From positions 62,001 through 126,000 of the forward strand of contig BQIV01000001.1 of the NCBI GenBank assembly GCA_021604005.1: a stretch of 64,000 nucleotides of DNA, given 5' to 3'. Source of the DNA: Nitrospirales bacterium. Its GTDB lineage: Bacteria; Nitrospirota; Nitrospiria; Nitrospirales; UBA8639. The number at the start of each line of letters is the position of its first letter. Within the stretch, counting starts at the first letter, position 1. The position numbers and the translations under genes are program-made. The notes below the pieces were generated by a model. That model was not told the DNA's origin. It did not search any database and saw only the letters and a program-made list of their open reading frames with translations. Below, in pieces: positions 34,524 through 44,223 of this stretch.

Positions 34524-34931
34524 ATGAGAATCGGTCAAGTTGCAAAACGGGCAGGAGTCAATGTTGAAACCATCCGCTTTTATGAGCGAAAAGGGTTAAT
34601 CACGCAGCCCCCAACCAACACAGGAGGATACCGTCAGTATCCCAAGGAAGCCATAGCCCGAATTCGTTTTATCAAGCGGGCCAAAGAGCTTGGTTTTTCC
34701 TTAACGGAAGTATTAGAGCTTCTCACTCTACAAACCAATCCCCAGGCAACCTGCGCTGATGTGAAAAGCCGCGCGGAAGATAAAATTTCCACAATTCATG
34801 GGCGCATTAAGGACTTGCAGAAAATGAGACGCTCTCTTGAAAGGTTAGCGGCTGCCTGCAAGGGCAGTGGCCCTCTTGATGAATGCCCCATAATTGATTG
34901 TTTTGAAACCAACAAAAAAAAGGAGGAGTAA
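34524..34931 (+). CDS. merR: MerR mercury(II)-responsive regulator
   Basis: A 135-residue MerR. The N-terminal winged helix reads RIGQVAKRAGVNVETIRFYE and RKGLITQPPTNTGGYRQYP. Cysteines 77, 112 and 121 keep exactly the spacing (35 and 9) of the mercury-binding cysteines 82, 117 and 126 of Tn501 MerR, so Hg(II) sensing is well supported. The gene is in the same direction as the structural genes and lies directly at its own predicted transcription start, so a self-regulated leaderless message is likely. Confidence 0.9.
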   Translation: MRIGQVAKRAGVNVETIRFYERKGLITQPPTNTGGYRQYPKEAIARIRFIKRAKELGFSLTEVLELLTLQTNPQATCADVKSRAEDKISTIHGRIKDLQKMRRSLERLAAACKGSGPLDECPIIDCFETNKKKEE

Positions 34932-34933
34932 CA

Positions 34934-35203
34934 ATGAGTTCCACACGTCAAATAGAAATCTTCAGTGCCGGGTGTCCGGTCTGTGAAGACACGATTGCTC
35001 TTGTAAACCGCATGGCCTGTCCCTCATGTAACGTAACGGTTCTTGACATGAAAGATCAGACAATCGCTAGCCGTGCTAAGAAGCTTGGTATACACCGGCT
35101 GCCTGCGGTGGTTATTGATGGTGCCCTAGCTTCTTGCTGTGGGGATAAAGGGCCGACTGAAGAAGAGCTGCGCCAAGCAGGGGTAGGGCAGGCCTTATCC
35201 TAA
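34934..35203 (+). CDS. Thioredoxin-like protein of the mer operon
   Basis: An 89-residue protein two bases after merR. A short thioredoxin/glutaredoxin fold is suggested by EIFSAGCPVCEDTIALV (CPVC active site), a second pair ACPSC, the cis-proline LPAVVIDG and a C-terminal CC. With six cysteines it could carry Hg(II) to or from the transporter, taking the place of MerP, which is not present. This role is inferred from position and cysteines. Confidence 0.7.
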   Translation: MSSTRQIEIFSAGCPVCEDTIALVNRMACPSCNVTVLDMKDQTIASRAKKLGIHRLPAVVIDGALASCCGDKGPTEEELRQAGVGQALS

Positions 35204-35221
35204 AGCAAGACTGATTTTTTT

Positions 35222-35619
35222 ATGGAGACAAAGAAACAAAAAAACATTCCTGCGCCTAAGCCTGGTTTCTTTGCAGGGATCAGTGTGTTTTCAGGGCTTG
35301 GCGCTTTGGTCGCCAAGTCCTGTTGCATCCTGCCTTTTCTACTCGCTTCATCAGGAATCGGAGGCGCATGGCTTAGCCAGGAACTCACGGCTCTTAAACC
35401 GTATTTTCTAACAGCCGCTATAGTGAGTCTTCTCATAGGGTGGTTTTTGGTTATTCGAAGAAACAGGAAGGCGTGTAAACGAATTCCCTCTGTGCTACAT
35501 CCAGGGCAGGATGGCCGACCTTTACGATGCTTGGTCTGGCTACCATGCTTGTGGGTCTATCTGCCATCTGGGATTTTTTCCAACCCGTTATTTTAGCCTA
35601 TCTAAAAGCTTTAGCATGA
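35222..35619 (+). pseudogene. merT: merT mercury transporter with a one-base frameshift
   Basis: The frame from 35222 encodes a MerT-like start: GALVAKSCCILPFLLASSG with the Hg-binding CC pair in the first membrane helix, then FLTAAIVSLLIGWFLVI. After the CKR codons at 35474-35482 the frame turns into non-membrane sequence and would end at 35596. Adding one A near 35481-35485 restores NSLCATSRAGW and a third membrane helix (TFTMLGLATMLVGLSAIWDF) up to a stop at 35617-35619, which overlaps the next start as ATGA. So merT carries a one-base deletion, real or a sequencing error. Confidence 0.8.
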
Positions 35620-35807
35620 TCTTTTTATACTCGACCATCACCTGTCCGCATTGCGGATATCAAAAGACTGAAATTATGCCTACAAATTCCTGCCGCGTCC
35701 TTTACGAATGCCATAACTGCCGAGCTATCTTGAAACCAGAAACAGGGCATTGTTGTGTTTTCTGCTCATACGCCGATTTTCCCTGTCCTCCCATCCAAAA
35801 GCGGTAA
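35616..35807 (+). CDS. GDCCVxC-type mer operon protein
   Basis: A 63-residue protein from the ATG at 35616, overlapping the corrected merT stop. It has CPHCGYQK near the start, a central CRVLYECHNCRAILKPE, and GHCCVFCSYADFPCPPIQ, the hallmark of the GDCCVxC family found in mercury operons (the family D is H here). Ten cysteines suggest metal binding. The family includes selenoproteins, but no in-frame TGA is seen here. Confidence 0.8.
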   Translation: MIFLYSTITCPHCGYQKTEIMPTNSCRVLYECHNCRAILKPETGHCCVFCSYADFPCPPIQKR

Positions 35808-35825
35808 GAGCTCATCCTGTTGCCT

Positions 35826-35858
35826 TTGCACCATTCTTCTATTACACTATATTGTGTA
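35826..35858 (+). promoter_or_regulatory. Promoter and operator of the ArsR-MtrA-like operon
   Basis: TTGCAC (35826-35831), a 16-base spacer and TATATT (35848-35853) form a plausible promoter. The palindrome TACAC-TATATT-GTGTA (35843-35858) covers the -10 box, as expected for an ArsR-type repressor site. GGGAGGAG follows before the start at 35886. Confidence 0.5.
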
Positions 35859-35885
35859 TTTATGGATATTGGGAGGAGATAGGTC

Positions 35886-36230
35886 ATGCTTCAACAGACT
35901 TCTCGGAAACCATCTCTTCGCCAGCGGTCTTTGCTCAGTTTGAAACAAGCTGCCGACCTGAAAGACCTCTTTGCAATCTTCGCTAATGACACCCGGCTTC
36001 GCCTTCTGCACGCCCTGGTACAGGCCGGGGAGCTCTGTGTGACCGATCTAGCCGAGCGGCTTGGTATGAACCCTCAAGCAATTTCCAACCAGCTCCAGCG
36101 CCTGGCAGATCGCAAAATTCTGGCGACCCGCCGCGAGGGGAACCATATCCATTACCGCGTCGTGGACCCCTGTGTGCCCACACTCATCCACCGTGGAATC
36201 TGTCTTCTTGAGGATACCCGTGAATTCTGA
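35886..36230 (+). CDS. ArsR/SmtB-family metal-sensing repressor
   Basis: A 114-residue ArsR-type winged-helix protein: LFAIFANDTRLRLLHALVQ, GELCVTDLAERLGMNPQAIS and NQLQRLADRKILATRREGN. Cysteines in ELCVTDL and near the C-terminus (DPCVPTLIHRGICLLED) could form a metal site on the dimer face, with Cys replacing His of the classic alpha-5 site. Position after the mer genes suggests mercury or a similar thiol-binding metal as inducer, but this is inferred. Its stop overlaps the next gene. Confidence 0.8.
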   Translation: MLQQTSRKPSLRQRSLLSLKQAADLKDLFAIFANDTRLRLLHALVQAGELCVTDLAERLGMNPQAISNQLQRLADRKILATRREGNHIHYRVVDPCVPTLIHRGICLLEDTREF

Positions 36231-37356
36231 TGCTCGAGAGACGCAAGAGAAAGTGTTGGGCGAGATTACAGCCCAACTCCATGAGGCCACGCAGGCGGAA
36301 AAGTGCTGGCCTTGCGGCTGCCTCCACCAATCGCTTCAGACCATTGAACAAGCGGTTCCGTCCGACCAACGTTCGCCTGAATTGATCTCGGCCCTCACAG
36401 CCGCAGCAGCATCACTCCTTCCAGTCAAATACGAATGTCTGGGCTGTCAGGTCTGCTATCCGGCGCTCGCAGTCAACGCTCTCTCACAAATGAGCGGAGA
36501 CAAATCTCTTGACGTTTGCCCGACGGATGCGGTGGAAGTTCGTGCCGGGTGGCCGCCACTCCCAGGGAACTATACTGTCCTCCGGTATCACGCGCCGGTG
36601 GCCGTCTGCACCCTGACCGATGATGCCCTTAGCAGCACTCTCTCCAGTCAGGCGGGGCCAGCCATGGCGATTATAGGCACCCTCCATACAGAGAATCTTG
36701 GTATTGAACGCCTAATCCAGAATGTGCTGGCTAATCCGTATATTCGGTTTCTCGTCGTCTGTGGCGACGACTCGCGGCAAGCCATCGGCCACCTTCCAGG
36801 CCAGTCCCTTGTTGCACTGGCTCGTCACGGCCTCGATGACCGATCCCGCATTCAAGAGGCTCGCGGCAAGCGCCCAGTGATCCGAAATGTGGATCGGGCC
36901 GCTGTGGAACACTTTCGCCAGACAATTGAAGTAATCGACTTGATCGGGACGAATGATCTAGGAACCATTCACGCTATGGGGCAAGAATGTGCTGATCTGA
37001 ATCCTGGCCCCAGTGACCCTTTCGTCTTCGCAGAAGTAGTTTCCCCCATTCCTGGTTATATTCCGTCTCGGATGATTCCTGACCCGGCTGGGTACTTTGT
37101 GGTGTATGTGGATCATCACGGCGGATGCTTGTTCCTTGAACATTACAAAAATACGGGATTCCTAGATGGGGTTATCCAAGGCCATTCAGCCCCTGAGCTT
37201 TATACGCCTGCCATTGAACGTGGGTGGCTCTCCCGGTTGGATCATGCGGCCTACCTTGGCTCTGAACTCACTCGGGCTGAGCGCGCACTTTTTACAGGGA
37301 CACCCTTCGTTCAAGATGCCGCACCAGAGCGAGCCAATGACTCCATTCCGACATAG
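36220..37356 (+). CDS. MtrA-like corrinoid-type domain plus DUF4346 protein
   Basis: A 378-residue protein from the GTG at 36220 (GAGGA five bases before it). Three parts are visible. Residues 20-110 are cysteine-rich (CWPCGC; CLGCQVC). Residues about 125-260 resemble MtrA of the methanogen methyltransferase: GWPPLPGNY, IGTLHTENLGIERLIQNVLA, FLVVCGDDSRQAIGHLPGQS. His191 in GHLPGQS aligns with the MtrA histidine 84 that binds the corrinoid cobalt. The C-terminus (about 300-370: YFVVYVDHHGGCLFLEHY, HAAYLGSELTRAE) looks like DUF4346. The gene is coupled to the ArsR repressor and followed by a DJ-1 gene. A methyl-transfer role on metals or metalloids is a guess. Confidence 0.7.
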   Translation: MNSDARETQEKVLGEITAQLHEATQAEKCWPCGCLHQSLQTIEQAVPSDQRSPELISALTAAAASLLPVKYECLGCQVCYPALAVNALSQMSGDKSLDVCPTDAVEVRAGWPPLPGNYTVLRYHAPVAVCTLTDDALSSTLSSQAGPAMAIIGTLHTENLGIERLIQNVLANPYIRFLVVCGDDSRQAIGHLPGQSLVALARHGLDDRSRIQEARGKRPVIRNVDRAAVEHFRQTIEVIDLIGTNDLGTIHAMGQECADLNPGPSDPFVFAEVVSPIPGYIPSRMIPDPAGYFVVYVDHHGGCLFLEHYKNTGFLDGVIQGHSAPELYTPAIERGWLSRLDHAAYLGSELTRAERALFTGTPFVQDAAPERANDSIPT

Positions 37357-37373: not shown

Positions 37374-38078
37374 ATGTCACAACTGCCCGACGTAAGTCAG
37401 GCTTCTGCTAAAGCGAAGGGGACCCCTGATTCATTCAAGTATCGGTTCCTCGCGCTCGTTGGGCAAGGCTTCGAGGACGTGGAATTGACGCCCTATACCA
37501 GTCTTGCAGGGTGGACGCGCCTCTTACCCAATCTCCCTGAGATTCAACTCGTGATCAGCGGGTTTCACGAAATCATTCGTTCCCGGCATGGTCTTCGTGT
37601 CTTGCGGGACGTGGATCTTGAGGTTGCGGCGCAGCAGGAATGGGATGCGGTCATCATTCCAGGTGGATGGCCAGATGGAGGCTATGAAGAACTGTACCAA
37701 GAGTCGGTTTTGTCGATCATCCGCCGAACGCATGCCCAAGGTGGTGTGATTGCCACTAGCTGCACGGGCATCTTTGCCGTCGGGGAAGCAGGATTGCTCA
37801 CAGGTCGGCGAGCGACAACATACGTGTCCACTCATGGTTTTTGTTCCCTGTGTGCCAAGAACGCGGAACGGCTAGCAGAGTATGGGGCACTGGTGTGTCA
37901 AGAGCCGTTCATCGCTGATGAACGCATTCTCTCAGATATAGGGCCAGCCATTGGACTTCGTGGCGCACTCGCCTTGTTGGAAGTTTTCATTGGCAAGACC
38001 GGTGTCGCCCGTCTCCGCGCGGAACTGCTTCTTGATCTAGTTTCTCATAAGGCCAAAGGGTTCGGGGAAATAGACTGA
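37374..38078 (+). CDS. DJ-1/PfpI-family protein
   Basis: A 234-residue protein with the DJ-1 fold: LVGQGFEDVELTPYTSLAGW with the conserved glutamate, DAVIIPGGWPDGGYEEL, and the nucleophile elbow IATSCTGIFAVGEAGLLTGR with Cys130. The family includes glyoxalase-type enzymes, chaperones and transcription regulators. It is 17 bases after the MtrA-like gene. Two later cysteines (FCSLCAKN) are unusual. Confidence 0.8.
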   Translation: MSQLPDVSQASAKAKGTPDSFKYRFLALVGQGFEDVELTPYTSLAGWTRLLPNLPEIQLVISGFHEIIRSRHGLRVLRDVDLEVAAQQEWDAVIIPGGWPDGGYEELYQESVLSIIRRTHAQGGVIATSCTGIFAVGEAGLLTGRRATTYVSTHGFCSLCAKNAERLAEYGALVCQEPFIADERILSDIGPAIGLRGALALLEVFIGKTGVARLRAELLLDLVSHKAKGFGEID

Positions 38079-38364: not shown

Positions 38365-38401
38365 TTGACTTTAAATTATATGTCCATTATTCTAGACATA
38401 T
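38365..38401 (+). promoter_or_regulatory. ars promoter and operator
   Basis: TTGACT (38365-38370), a 17-base spacer and TATTCT (38388-38393) form a promoter. ATATGTC (38378-38384) and GACATAT (38395-38401) are a perfect inverted repeat bracketing the -10 box, a natural ArsR operator. The start codon of arsR is within the right arm, so the message is probably leaderless. Confidence 0.75.
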
Positions 38402-38777
38402 GGATATACAAGAAGCCCTGATCGCCTTCGATGCCCTCTCCCAGGAAACTCGCTTGCGAGTATTTCGCCTTCTTGTCGAACAGGGCCCGGAGGGAGCACC
38501 AGCTGGAACCTTAAGCGAGGCTCTGAATATTCCCCATAACACGCTTTCCTTTCATTTATCTCATATGAGCAACGCGCACCTGGTCACATCACGCCGTCAA
38601 AGCCGTTCGATTATTTACAGCGCCAATTTTGAGTTTTTCACCAACCTGATCCAATTCATGGTGGAAGATTGCTGCCGGAGGGAGTTCGCCAGCATCCGCC
38701 ATGACAAAAAAAAGCAATGCAACATTATTGAGCTCGCGCAATGTTGTCCCCCCAAAGGAAAGGAAAAGGCCTCATGA
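38400..38777 (+). CDS. arsR: ArsR arsenic-responsive repressor
   Basis: A 125-residue ArsR: ALSQETRLRVFRLLVEQGPE, LSEALNIPHNTLSFHLSHMS, then the wing VTSRRQSRSIIYSANF. The C-terminus has two CC pairs (VEDCCRRE; LAQCCPPK) and one Cys between, like the group of ArsR proteins that bind As(III) near the C-terminus. No ribosome binding site precedes the ATG, and the predicted transcription start is at or next to it. It overlaps arsI by four bases. Confidence 0.88.
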   Translation: MDIQEALIAFDALSQETRLRVFRLLVEQGPEGAPAGTLSEALNIPHNTLSFHLSHMSNAHLVTSRRQSRSIIYSANFEFFTNLIQFMVEDCCRREFASIRHDKKKQCNIIELAQCCPPKGKEKAS

Positions 38778-39250
38778 AACGTCTGCATATCCATCTCGGC
38801 ACTGACAACCTGGCGGAATCGATCCGCTTTTATACCGCCCTGTTTGGCACAGAGCCTGTGAAAACCAAGCCCGACTATGCCAAGTGGCTTCTCGATGATC
38901 CCCATGTAAATTTCGCGGTGTCCACCCGTGCGTCCAAGCGGGGAGTAGACCATTTGGGAATTCAGGTCGACGACGCTTCGGAATTAGCGGATATGCGGGA
39001 CCGGCTGAACCAAGCCGCGTTGAGCGTCTTCGATGAAGGGGAAACGGTCTGTTGTTATGCCCGGTCAGAGAAAAGCTGGGTTCAGGACCCCGCAGGCCTT
39101 CCGTGGGAAGCCTACCGAACGATGGAGGCGGCGGAAGTGTTCTCCGGGCATCCCACGCAGGATAAGGATGCGTGCTGTACACCAGATACCATGCGAACGC
39201 CTGATTGTTGTGAGCCAAACCCTCTCACCAAGGACTGTTGCGTGTCATGA
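38774..39250 (+). CDS. arsI: ArsI-type C-As lyase (VOC family)
   Basis: A 158-residue protein from the ATG overlapping the arsR stop. It has the vicinal oxygen chelate fold: KRLHIHLGTDNLAESIRFYT at the start, GVDHLGIQVDD with a metal histidine, the paired thiols ETVCCYARSEKSW (C93, C94) that bind the arsenical, and QDPAGLPWEAY with the metal glutamate. ArsI removes the methyl or aryl group from trivalent organoarsenicals. The C-terminus is rich in CC pairs (DACC, DCCE, DCCVS). CadI, a cadmium-induced relative, is the alternative, but the ars operon favours ArsI. Confidence 0.88.
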   Translation: MKRLHIHLGTDNLAESIRFYTALFGTEPVKTKPDYAKWLLDDPHVNFAVSTRASKRGVDHLGIQVDDASELADMRDRLNQAALSVFDEGETVCCYARSEKSWVQDPAGLPWEAYRTMEAAEVFSGHPTQDKDACCTPDTMRTPDCCEPNPLTKDCCVS

Positions 39251-39774
39251 GTTCCGATCCGCTTAACGTGCTGTTCCTTTGCACCGGCAATTCGGCACGC
39301 AGCATCCTGGCCGAATCCATCATCAATCATTGGGGCAAAGGGAAATTCCACGGCTTTAGCGCGGGCAGTCATCCGAAAGGTGAAGTTCACCCTATGGCAC
39401 TGGATTTACTCCGGCGGCTGGATTTTCCCACGGAAGGGCTACGCAGCAAGAGCTGGGATGAATTTGCCAAGCGGGATGCTCCGAACATGGATTTTGTATT
39501 TACCGTGTGCGACTCCGCCGGAGCAGAAGCCTGTCCGGTCTGCCCAGGGCATCCCGTCACCGCGCATTGGGGTGTAGCCGATCCGGCGGCGGTGAAGGGA
39601 GATGACATTCAAACCATGGAGGCCTTCCGCCAAGCCTTTCGTGAACTGGAAAACCGCATCAAGGTTTTTGTGAGTTTGCCCATTGCCTCCCTGGATTCCA
39701 TGAAGCTCCAACACAAACTTCAAGAAATTGGCCAGGCATCCCTGGAAGAGGAGCATCCCACACCGACGCAATAA
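39247..39774 (+). CDS. arsC: Arsenate reductase, thioredoxin-coupled type
   Basis: A 175-residue protein from the ATG at 39247, overlapping the arsI stop. The phosphatase-like loop is VLFLCTGNSARSILAES, with a catalytic cysteine; a later FTVCDSAGAEACPVCPGHP supplies the resolving cysteines and HWGVADPAAVKG closes the site, as in thioredoxin-linked ArsC. It reduces arsenate to arsenite in the cytoplasm for export by the next gene. Confidence 0.9.
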   Translation: MSSDPLNVLFLCTGNSARSILAESIINHWGKGKFHGFSAGSHPKGEVHPMALDLLRRLDFPTEGLRSKSWDEFAKRDAPNMDFVFTVCDSAGAEACPVCPGHPVTAHWGVADPAAVKGDDIQTMEAFRQAFRELENRIKVFVSLPIASLDSMKLQHKLQEIGQASLEEEHPTPTQ

Positions 39775-39809
39775 GGCCACTGACAGGAGATGAAGAGGAA
39801 TACACCCCC

Positions 39810-40928
39810 ATGAGCGCAGCCGGAGAACATACCTCCCTAAAAACTGATTCAGCCCCGTTAGGATCATTTGAGCGATTTCTCACCCTGTGGGTTGCCCTAT
39901 GTATTGTGACCGGCATTGGGCTGGGACATTTCTTTCCTGCGATCTTTCAAAATCTTGGCCAATGGGAACTCGCGCACGTCAACATCCCGGTCGCCATTCT
40001 GATCTGGCTCATGATTGTGCCGATGCTACTGAAAATCGACTTTGCCGCGCTCCACCACGTAGCCCGTCATTGGAAAGGCATTGGCGTCACTCTGTTTATC
40101 AACTGGGCCGTTAAGCCGTTTTCCATGGCCGTCCTGGGCTGGATTTTTATTCGGATGGTGTTCGCGCCGTATCTGCCAAGAGAACAGCAGGATGCCTATA
40201 TCGCCGGACTTATTTTGTTAGCTGCCGCGCCTTGTACCGCGATGGTCTTTGTCTGGAGCCATCTTTCCAAAGGGGAGCCACATTTCACATTGACGCAAGT
40301 GGCCTTGAATGACCTGATCATGATTGTGGCCTTTGCCCCAATTGTTGGATTGCTTCTTGGTTTATCCGCGATAACCGTTCCCTGGGAGACGTTGTTTCTG
40401 TCCGTGATTTTATACATCGTGATTCCCGTGGGCTTTGCCCAGTGGTGGCGTCGTAATCTTTTACGCAATGGATGCATAAAAAAACTGGAGCACGTGTTGT
40501 CTCTTATCCATCCCATTTCTTTGTTAGCGTTGTTAGCCACCCTGGTATTGTTATTTGGATTTCAAGGAGAACAAATTCTTACTCAGCCGTTGATCATTGC
40601 CATGCTGGCCGTGCCTATCCTGATACAAGTCTATTTTAATTCCGGCCTTTCTTACATCCTGAACCGGACATTCGGCGTGGCGCACTGCGTGGCAGCCCCA
40701 TCGGCCCTCATCGGAGCCAGTAATTTCTTTGAATTGGCTGTCGCCACGGCGATTGTTCTATTCGGGTTCAATTCCGGGGCAGCACTTGCTACTGTGGTTG
40801 GTGTCCTAGTGGAAGTGCCGGTGATGTTGTCAGTGGTAGGAATCGTCAATCGAACAAAGGTGTGGTATGAGCAAGGCTCGCGCGTTTCAATTTCCTCTCC
40901 CAACACTCCAAAAACCTTAACTCCCTGA
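39810..40928 (+). CDS. acr3: Acr3-type arsenite efflux permease
   Basis: A 372-residue membrane protein with ten hydrophobic helices. Typical Acr3 segments are visible: VAILIWLMIVPMLLKIDFAA, the conserved cysteine motif ILLAAAPCTAMVFVWSHLSK and FTLTQVALNDLIMI, then a later SALIGASNFFELAVATAI. It exports As(III) from the cytoplasm. It is the last gene of the arsR-arsI-arsC-acr3 operon. Confidence 0.92.
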   Translation: MSAAGEHTSLKTDSAPLGSFERFLTLWVALCIVTGIGLGHFFPAIFQNLGQWELAHVNIPVAILIWLMIVPMLLKIDFAALHHVARHWKGIGVTLFINWAVKPFSMAVLGWIFIRMVFAPYLPREQQDAYIAGLILLAAAPCTAMVFVWSHLSKGEPHFTLTQVALNDLIMIVAFAPIVGLLLGLSAITVPWETLFLSVILYIVIPVGFAQWWRRNLLRNGCIKKLEHVLSLIHPISLLALLATLVLLFGFQGEQILTQPLIIAMLAVPILIQVYFNSGLSYILNRTFGVAHCVAAPSALIGASNFFELAVATAIVLFGFNSGAALATVVGVLVEVPVMLSVVGIVNRTKVWYEQGSRVSISSPNTPKTLTP

Positions 40929-42165: not shown

Positions 42166-44223
42166 CTATGAGGCCGACAAGTGCAGTGGCTTCCGCACCC
42201 TTAACCCGTTTGCCACAGCCAAAAGTTCACTGACCTCATGGATGAAGACTGCCGCCGCGACACTCAATGCCCCAAAAAGGGCCGAGGGAATGAGGACGGC
42301 GAGGAGAAGGAGAGAAAATACGATGTTCTGTTGGCTGATCCTGCGAACTCGACGGCCCAGCCGCAATGCGTGAGCGACCTTTCTTAGATCCTCAGACATG
42401 AGGGCAACGTCCGCCGCCTCAATTGCCGCATCACTGCCCATCGCGCCCATCGCCATACCACAGGTTGCCGCCGCTAGCGCCGGCGCATCATTGATCCCAT
42501 CACCCACCATCAACACAGCTCCAAATCGCTGTTCGAGGTCCTGCACAGCCCGCACTTTATCCTCGGGACTCAGGTTTGCCCGAACCTCGTCAATGCCAAG
42601 GGCGCGGGCGACGGCCTCGGCCGCGAGCGCATGATCACCCGTCAGCATCGCAACTCGGACACCCATCGTGTGAAGTTCGCGGATCACATCCTGCATGCCG
42701 GGACGGATCCGATCTTGGAGGGCTAACAAGCCACAGATTGCGTCACCATTGCCAACCAACACCACCGTCTTCCCCTGGGCTTGAAACTGTTGAACCGTGC
42801 TTTCAATTTGCTCCAATTTGGCACCTAAGTTTTGAAAGAGATCCAACTTCCCAACATACCAATCTGTTTGACCAACAATCGCTTTGGCACCCGTCCCGGT
42901 GAGGGATTCGAAATCTCGGACTTTGGCAGGAGTGACCCCCTGAGATCTCGCTCGATCGACAATGGCCCGGGCCAACGGGTGCGCGGAAGCGTATTCCACC
43001 CCTGCTGCCAGCCTCAACAATTCCTCTGAGGAACCGTTAAAAGGGACGACGTCCGTCACCATGGGGACGCCCCGAGTAAGGGTTCCGGTTTTGTCAAAGG
43101 CAATCATCCGAATGGAACCGAGATGCTCTAAGTGCGCACCGCCTTTAATCAAGATGCCTTGTCGGCCGGCCGTACCAATGCCGGCGGCCATAGCCACGGG
43201 CATGGACATCACCAGTGCGCAGGGAGCCGCAGCAACAAGTAGCACGACAGCTCGAACGGCCCATTCGTCGTAGGGGAGTCCCACAAGCCAAGGGACAACG
43301 AGAAACAGAAGGGATGCGCCGAGAACCACGGGGCTGTAACGGCGTCCAAACCGTTCGATCCACTGCTGAGTTTTTCCTTTCCGTTCTTGAGCCTCCTCCA
43401 CGAGATTAATGATTTTGGCTAAGGTATTATCTTGGAACGCAGCCGTCGCCTCCACCTCAAGAGCCCCTTGGAGGTTCAGCGTCCCAGCAAACACCAGCAT
43501 GCCGGGTTCTTTGTCCACGGGAATAGATTCCCCGGTCACGGCGGATTCATCGAGACTTGACGTTCCAGAATTCACGGTGCCATCAGTTGGAATGGATTCG
43601 CCAGGTCGTACCAGAAATCGGTCGCCAGGCCGCAACGCCTCAGCCGCAATGGTGACCTCCTGACCCTCTCGGAGAAGGTGCGCCTCCTTCGGAGCCAAAT
43701 CCAGAAGAGCCTGGATCGCCGAGCGGGTGCGGGCGTAGGTGTACTCCTCCAATCCCTCAGCCGCTCCATACAGAAAAACGAGGAAGGCTGCTTCATCCCA
43801 GAGCCCAAGGAGCCCGGACCCTACCGTCGCAGCCAGCATTAAGAGATCGATTCCAATCTCATGCTCCATAAAGAGGTCTTCCACGGCTTCCCGAGCCCAG
43901 TGGTAGCCACCCAGGGGAATCGCCACAACATAAAAAGCGAGCTCTACTTGCTCGGTGATGAACCCCGCGTGGGCGAGGACAAATCCCACCCCCGCCAACA
44001 CGCCAGCCATGAGGGCATTTCGCAGGATAGGGTATTCCCACCACTGGCCTTCAAACCCATCTTGGTGATTCTCTTCTTTTGGCATGACCGAAGTGCCCAT
44101 CAGTTGGTTAGAGATTTGCTCGTATGAAGTTCTTAAAAAATTTTCTCTTTTTAGTGTTGTATAGATTTTTCGTGAAATGGCAATATGAGGGTTTCTTGAT
44201 CCAATTTGCTCCTCTGCTACCAT
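42166..44223 (-). CDS. P1B-type metal ATPase with APC motif
   Basis: A 685-residue heavy-metal ATPase (the start may be the ATG at residue 47, MPKEENHQ). The core is complete: SAVTGESIPVDK, phosphorylation site AFDKTGTLTRG, the HP motif SAHPLARA, GVRVAMLTGDH and MVGDGINDAPAL. The membrane metal motif is APC (residues 333-335, LVAAAPCALVMSMP) instead of CPC or SPC, and helix 8 has HEVSELLAVANG instead of HEGSTLLV. There is no N-terminal metal-binding domain. The substrate is probably zinc, cadmium or cobalt; the motif makes this unsure. Confidence 0.85.
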   Translation of the reverse strand: MVAEEQIGSRNPHIAISRKIYTTLKRENFLRTSYEQISNQLMGTSVMPKEENHQDGFEGQWWEYPILRNALMAGVLAGVGFVLAHAGFITEQVELAFYVVAIPLGGYHWAREAVEDLFMEHEIGIDLLMLAATVGSGLLGLWDEAAFLVFLYGAAEGLEEYTYARTRSAIQALLDLAPKEAHLLREGQEVTIAAEALRPGDRFLVRPGESIPTDGTVNSGTSSLDESAVTGESIPVDKEPGMLVFAGTLNLQGALEVEATAAFQDNTLAKIINLVEEAQERKGKTQQWIERFGRRYSPVVLGASLLFLVVPWLVGLPYDEWAVRAVVLLVAAAPCALVMSMPVAMAAGIGTAGRQGILIKGGAHLEHLGSIRMIAFDKTGTLTRGVPMVTDVVPFNGSSEELLRLAAGVEYASAHPLARAIVDRARSQGVTPAKVRDFESLTGTGAKAIVGQTDWYVGKLDLFQNLGAKLEQIESTVQQFQAQGKTVVLVGNGDAICGLLALQDRIRPGMQDVIRELHTMGVRVAMLTGDHALAAEAVARALGIDEVRANLSPEDKVRAVQDLEQRFGAVLMVGDGINDAPALAAATCGMAMGAMGSDAAIEAADVALMSEDLRKVAHALRLGRRVRRISQQNIVFSLLLLAVLIPSALFGALSVAAAVFIHEVSELLAVANGLRVRKPLHLSAS

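Follow-up and report, generated by a model that had tools for sequence, protein, structure and literature searches.

What would a relative of MtrA, the corrinoid subunit of the methanogen methyltransferase, be doing among the metal resistance genes of a Nitrospirales bacterium? The question is raised by a gene in the stretch of DNA analysed here (the window, 64,000 nt; GCA_021604005.1, contig BQIV01000001.1, positions 62,001-126,000), the relevant features of which are listed in Table 1. The initial annotation placed this gene in a mercury/arsenic island and considered a corrinoid-based transfer of methyl groups to or from metals or metalloids possible. The observation is far beyond chance, as full-length relatives with the same three-part architecture occur in many bacterial phyla (GTDB genome scan).

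Table 1. The MtrA-like gene, its operon and neighbouring units (positions within the window)
Feature	Position	Strand	Remarks
MtrA-like corrinoid-type protein, Cys-rich domain + MtrA domain + DUF4346	36220..37356	+	378 aa, GTG start, open ORF
N-terminal Cys-rich domain, residues 1-106	36220..36537	+	C29 C32 C34 C73 C76 C79 C100
MtrA corrinoid-binding domain (predicted), residues 107-264	36538..37011	+	PF04208; model fit to 5laa
His191 codon, predicted axial cobalt ligand	36790..36792	+	aligned with MtrA His84
DUF4346 domain, residues 288-366	37081..37317	+	PF14251; model pLDDT 95
AntR-type ArsR/SmtB repressor	35886..36230	+	best PDB match 6uvu, E 8e-39
DJ-1/PfpI-family protein, operon gene 3	37374..38078	+	PF01965, E 2e-15
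Putative sigma-70-like promoter TTTGCA-17-TATATT of the arsR - mtrA-like - pfpI operon	35825..35853	+	consensus scan alone
Operator ATTACA-N8-TGTAWT, overlapping the putative -10 hexamer	35841..35860	+	motif common to AntR-type loci
merR-type regulator, thioredoxin-like (ArsE-like) and merT-like genes; same island, separate unit	34524..35596	+	
arsR-arsI-arsC-acr3 operon, separate unit with its own regulator	38400..40928	+	arsI at 38741-39250

The operon and its island

The end of the ArsR-family gene overlaps the GTG start of the mtrA-like gene by 11 nt, and a GAGG lies about 7 bases upstream of this GTG; both point to translational coupling, in agreement with the coupling to an ArsR-type repressor claimed at the outset. 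The pfpI gene that follows adjoins the mtrA-like gene in close Nitrospirota relatives only (neighbourhood comparison). The promoter hexamers proposed for this operon agree with the consensus at 9/12 positions, and two such matches were found in the region against 1.7 expected; by itself the match is weak evidence. The arsI gene is indeed nearby, as initially noted, but belongs to a separate operon, and only one of 65 relatives has arsI in its vicinity. The argument from mercury/arsenic genes and arsI reflects incidental features of this particular island.

Some other features of the region are worth recording. A small zinc-ribbon ORF (35511-35807, with CCVFCSY at its end) follows the merT-like gene and overlaps the end of that gene. 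A heavy-metal P-type ATPase encoded on the minus strand (42166-44223) has APC in place of CPC in its transmembrane metal motif (AAAPCALV), as does its counterpart in a relative (L002). On the same contig, outside the window (G000:C1:157611-159006), a MerA-like gene is split over two overlapping frames, probably by a frameshift in the assembly or in the organism.

An MtrA-type cobalamin site

The middle domain matches the MtrA profile strongly (E 8.5e-39; 133.4 bits, gathering cut-off 25) and every PDB match of the protein is an MtrA, so this part of the initial annotation stands. Alignment with the Methanothermus fervidus MtrA homologue, in which MtrA numbering is preserved exactly, equates His191, the histidine of the HLPG motif, with His84, Glu158 with Glu54, Asn159 with Asn55, Thr157 with Thr53, Gly161 with Gly57 and Asn168 with Asn64. 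In MtrA, His84 is the cobalt ligand and Glu54 its hydrogen-bond partner, the other residues being cobalamin contacts (Wagner et al., PMC4915002). All six positions are identical in the 66 aligned members of the family, which span 31-85% identity to the window protein, and the conservation claimed for the cobalt-ligand-type histidine is therefore confirmed. Tyr118, equivalent to the MtrA Tyr18 that stacks on the base, is retained in 62 of these members. Within the region corresponding to the MtrA meander (consensus GAIPF-x-x-EN), G216, P219 and N223 are retained, while MtrA Ile111, a contact of the Glu54-His84 pair, is replaced by an invariant arginine (Arg218) in all members of the MtrA-like family.

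An AlphaFold2 model of the window protein has a mean pLDDT of 87 and a pTM of 0.62, so that the mutual placing of its domains is unsure. The model fits the cobalamin-bound MtrA homologue 5laa with a Z of 24.9 and an rmsd of 1.8 over 155 residues. The sequence shows that the protein carries an MtrA-type cobalamin site with a predicted histidine ligand. The presence of an MtrA domain in bacteria is not new: homologues keeping the histidine had already been noted in some of them (Wagner et al., PMC4915002).

Flanking domains

The Cys-rich N-terminus and DUF4346 C-terminus initially described are both real features of the family. The N-terminal cysteines (C29-x2-C32-x-C34, C73-x2-C76-x2-C79 and C100) are all seven identical in 31/31 diverse members, with identity as low as 19%. 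This domain has no Pfam match in a profile search. An Fe-S cluster or some other metal site may be present here. A CFeSP-type [4Fe-4S] domain, which has a similar-looking motif, was considered and found little support, hhalign against about 20 PF04060 domains giving a probability of 3.4% and the cysteine spacing being different. The version carried by a Planococcus plasmid (L099, 7326-8729) carries, ahead of its MtrA domain, inserted repeats of a CGC-containing, metal-binding-like unit, and its gene adjoins one for a heavy-metal P-type ATPase with CSC replacing CPC.

The C-terminal match to DUF4346 is clear (E 1.1e-19), and the domain, modelled alone, yields a confident fold. No Foldseek hit in the PDB reaches E 0.001 for this model (the best VIA Z was 5.8), and no function is therefore deduced from the fold; pterin binding is suggested by the Pfam name only. 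A comparison with viral structures gave no match. Our literature search returned nothing on DUF4346, and nothing on MtrA in connection with arsenic or mercury resistance.

Two kinds of metal sensors

The regulators of MtrA-like loci fall into two mutually exclusive kinds, AntR-type (26 loci) and CadC-type (27 loci), never found together. Those of the second kind have CadC as their PDB match and retain its four cysteines in 25/25 cases; CadC-type regulators are Cd/Pb/Bi sensors. The window regulator belongs to the first kind, its best match (6uvu) being what we take to be AntR of Comamonas testosteroni. AntR reportedly responds to Sb(III) and methylantimonite. The window regulator is also 57% identical to an Enterobacter hormaechei plasmid protein annotated as "antimonite-responsive transcriptional repressor AntR", which is nearly identical to 6uvu and whose gene precedes that of a 62-aa Cys protein, itself followed by a P-type ATPase gene. 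C96 and C106 of the window regulator align with the AntR cysteines and are invariant in 19/19 members of its clade. Gram-positive AntR-type regulators, about 51% identical to that of the window, sit with metallothionein or CadD, and the inducer in the window could consequently be Cd(II) rather than Sb(III).

The motif ATTACA-N8-TGTAAT is found upstream of 24/26 AntR-type genes when two mismatches are allowed and of 20/26 when only one is, as against none of 28 CadC-type and other regulators and 43/1980 random windows (2.2%, up to one mismatch). A perfect copy precedes the annotated antR of E. hormaechei. The comparisons show that the gene heading the operon encodes a predicted metal(loid) sensor and that its operator is conserved. 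A wider regulon was looked for in the organism's own genome and rejected, since the seven sites found at one mismatch against six for the reversed control amount to chance; the regulon of the window repressor is therefore probably the mtrA-like operon alone. As for the mercury/arsenic framing of the initial annotation, it holds in part: the conserved element is an upstream metal sensor, and the type of sensor indicates Sb(III) (AntR-type) or Cd/Pb/Bi (CadC-type).

Distribution and genomic context of the family

The GTDB scan yielded at least 65 bacterial relatives; the search favours close relatives, and the locus and host counts given here refer to those listed. Members include proteins of Methylomonas methanica NCIMB 11130, Dechloromonas hortensis MA-1 and Anaeromyxobacter oryzae Red232. 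The tree of the family has Nitrospirota at its deep branches, besides two large clades. On it, 16 changes of phylum label are needed (minimum 11), and plasmids carry copies in Planococcus and Paraburkholderia, which makes horizontal transfer of the gene likely.

Far from lying mostly away from metal genes, the homologues are preceded at 50/64 loci by an ArsR-family gene of the same orientation at most 1.7 kb away, which is true of 19/311 of the remaining genes there (p 2e-33), and metal-resistance genes lie near 37/65 loci, compared with 1/31 control neighbourhoods drawn from the same genomes, mostly around MetH-type B12 domains. Several architectures recur. A CadC-type regulator can be followed by MerC or two SMR proteins, the MtrA-like protein, a thioredoxin-like protein and CcdA. 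An AntR-type regulator can be followed by the MtrA-like protein, a small periplasmic protein and either a Cys-rich membrane protein or a LolCDE/MacB-like ABC transporter, or else by a V4R protein, the MtrA-like protein, a thioredoxin-like protein and CcdA. Thioredoxin-like neighbours occur at 23 of the listed loci and CcdA-type ones at 25. The Planococcus plasmids have the order ArsR - HMA - P-type ATPase - MtrA-like. The V4R-domain protein, encoded between the regulator and the MtrA-like gene (L062, 7436-7975, also L019, L029, L030 and L033), has several cysteines. V4R proteins are linked to tetrapyrroles in other settings, and by analogy a part in corrinoid handling is conceivable.

The deepest Nitrospirota members (L086-L090) have parAB or Wood-Ljungdahl genes rather than metal genes as neighbours, so the original role of the family may possibly have been in ordinary C1 metabolism. 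In one of them (L090), the MtrA-like gene is divergent from genes for an apparent pterin methyltransferase and an apparent CO dehydrogenase/acetyl-CoA synthase subunit.

MetH-type B12 domains are present in 28/35 hosts, including the window host, which indicates that cobalamin is used there. MtrH was over its cut-off in none of 36 host genomes and the RACo reactivator is found in only six, so the MtrA-like protein appears to work mostly without both. MerA passes its cut-off in 12/36 hosts and MerB in 5/36, so the system is not just one more component of mer, and a tie to mercury alone is not supported. An arsenic link was likewise rejected, with ArsI, ArsC and Acr3 near 1, 3 and 2 of 65 relatives, respectively.

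A possible link to antimony and metal methylation

AntR-type regulators are found in 5/198 Nitrospirota genomes, and three of these five carry the MtrA-like gene, compared with 9/193 of the others (p 0.002). At a Verrucomicrobia locus (L008), genes are arranged in the order arsR-type, arsC-like, acr3, AntC-like, MtrA-like, CcdA and P-type ATPase; this AntA-like ATPase is 59% identical to the AntR-linked one, the only time that such a pump was seen as a partner.

Another Nitrospirota genome (G190, contig C57, locus L172, 1468-5015) has an AntR-type gene followed by genes for a small periplasmic protein and a Cys-rich membrane protein, both of them accessory genes also found in MtrA-like operons. 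Next come CpaM (NF043040, 265 bits, cut-off 180), an HgcAB-like fusion (NF043039, 376 bits, cut-off 285) and a MerC that shares 67% identity with its counterpart in gammaproteobacterial MtrA-like operons. No MtrA-like gene was found in this genome in the survey of Nitrospirota genomes. The order AntR-type - CpaM - HgcAB-like is also seen in G307, and in a third genome over the cut-off (G291) CpaM occurs with the fusion, the stretch read there containing no AntR-type gene. The context in G190 and G307 suggests a metal(loid) role for the fusion. HgcA transfers a methyl group onto Hg(II), and HgcAB is, to our knowledge, the sole established corrinoid system methylating a toxic metal. Methyl transfer involving a metal(loid) becomes more plausible for the MtrA-like protein in view of the AntR-type regulator and operator that its loci share and of the equivalent operon with an HgcAB-like protein. 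That two unrelated corrinoid proteins have a common type of regulator and common partners, albeit at few loci, is the strongest pointer to a methyl-transfer role.

Possible functions

We tentatively propose that the protein would be a cytoplasmic corrinoid methyl carrier made under metal(loid) stress, moving methyl groups onto or off a soft metal(loid) such as Sb(III). By analogy it would function like HgcAB, with antimony or a similar soft metal(loid) as the most likely substrate in the window. Once inside the cell, Sb(III) or a soft metal(loid) like it would release the AntR-type repressor and induce the MtrA-like protein, and the Cys-rich domain would serve to keep the cobalamin on His191 in a reducible state. 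Methyl transfer by the methyl-cobalt/Co(I) centre would follow, more likely to the metal(loid) than from it, in the manner of HgcA with Hg(II), with export or loss of the product at the end. DUF4346 may have a part on the donor/acceptor side of the transfer (pterin), a suggestion that comes from the Pfam name only. In other lineages, the sensors in charge of the same protein are CadC-type (Cd/Pb/Bi), and its partners are MerC, a thioredoxin-like protein and CcdA.

Other explanations have to be weighed against such a carrier. It is unlikely that no methyl transfer takes place and that the Cys-rich protein instead binds or reduces the metal(loid), with electrons from cob(I)alamin or thiols supplied via the thioredoxin-like and CcdA partners; the seven invariant cysteines, the extra Cys repeats of the Planococcus plasmid version and the frequency of these partners would fit, but a complete MtrA cobalamin site, His-Glu pair included, is conserved in all members and would be superfluous in a pure metal buffer, and the partners are predicted from their families to face the membrane/periplasm, not the cytoplasm. 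A stress back-up, in which the induced corrinoid protein stands in for thiol or zinc enzymes poisoned by metals (methionine synthase, for example) and carries methyl groups from methyl-tetrahydrofolate to an ordinary acceptor, seems rather improbable. MtrA is normally a methyl carrier, proposed as a donor to core methionine synthases (PMC7857596), the name of DUF4346 hints at a pterin and deep members adjoin Wood-Ljungdahl genes; yet no gene for methionine synthase or another acceptor was seen in the operons, MetH-type B12-binding domains are already there in the 28 hosts counted above, and importers such as MerC would serve no purpose in the operon.

We give little credence to a demethylase acting on methylmercury, methylarsenic or methylantimony, with tetrahydrofolate receiving the methyl groups. 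A corrinoid and a possible pterin domain could suffice for this, MerC/MerT-type importers are nearby and MerB is rare among the hosts, but the clade B sensors are of the inorganic-cation CadC type and the operons have no universal gene to deal with the metal once freed. That the corrinoid domain does no transfer chemistry at all, being a relic or a sensor (a store of B12 or a regulator), is very improbable, the ligand and contacts being invariant across the whole identity range of the family.

The methyl carrier acting on a soft metal(loid) is accordingly the reading that we retain, as a tentative one. A broader version, somewhat doubtful in our judgement, is that of a second, independently evolved MtrA-based corrinoid methylation system beside HgcAB, spread horizontally through many phyla, with antimony as the substrate in the AntR branch and Cd/Pb/Bi/Hg-type metals in the CadC branch. 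Methylcobalamin has been implicated in antimony methylation, the enzymes and genes of which a 2021 review (PMC8453088) gave as unknown; if the broader version were true, the MtrA-based system could supply the missing gene for antimony biomethylation. A metal-sensor-controlled MtrA-type protein, widespread in bacteria without methanogenesis, is a concrete candidate for corrinoid-based metal(loid) transformation.

Comparison with known systems

The closest named family is NF002128 (PRK00964.1-6), a bacterial 390-aa "tetrahydromethanopterin S-methyltransferase subunit A", which matches the window protein over nearly its full length (residues 6-372, E 1.5e-134) with 449 bits, below the curated cut-off of 568. 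Its name is that of the methanogen enzyme, and no functional work on the family was found; our finding corrects this automatic annotation (methanogen methyltransferase subunit A), which such bacterial proteins are likely to bear. MtrA itself (PF04208; 5laa, 5l8x, 8q3v) is alike in the fold of the middle domain, in His84/Glu54/Asn55 and in the tail-pocket residues, whereas the window protein has flanking Cys-rich and DUF4346 domains where MtrA has a membrane anchor, lies in a metal-sensor operon in hosts without MtrH and has an invariant Arg in place of Ile111.

The ant operon (AntR, small Cys protein, P-type ATPase) has the AntR-type repressor and the same operator in common with the window operon, but in its annotated form consists, beyond the repressor, of the small Cys protein and the P-type ATPase, without a corrinoid protein. 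Compared with CadC (1u2w, 9t6r), the clade B regulators retain the CxxxCF and ELCVCD cysteines and differ in heading corrinoid-protein operons. The corrinoid domain of HgcA is unrelated (PF03599, with the Cys ligand motif NVWCA), while the MtrA-like protein is predicted to use a histidine: a profile search of the window protein with PF03599 gave no match, and the N(V/I)WCA motif is in none of the MtrA-like loci fetched, being present only at the G190 locus with its HgcAB-like fusion. What the MtrA-like protein has in common with HgcAB and the HgcAB-like fusion (NF040863, NF043039) is the combination of a corrinoid protein with a Cys/Fe-S-type module.
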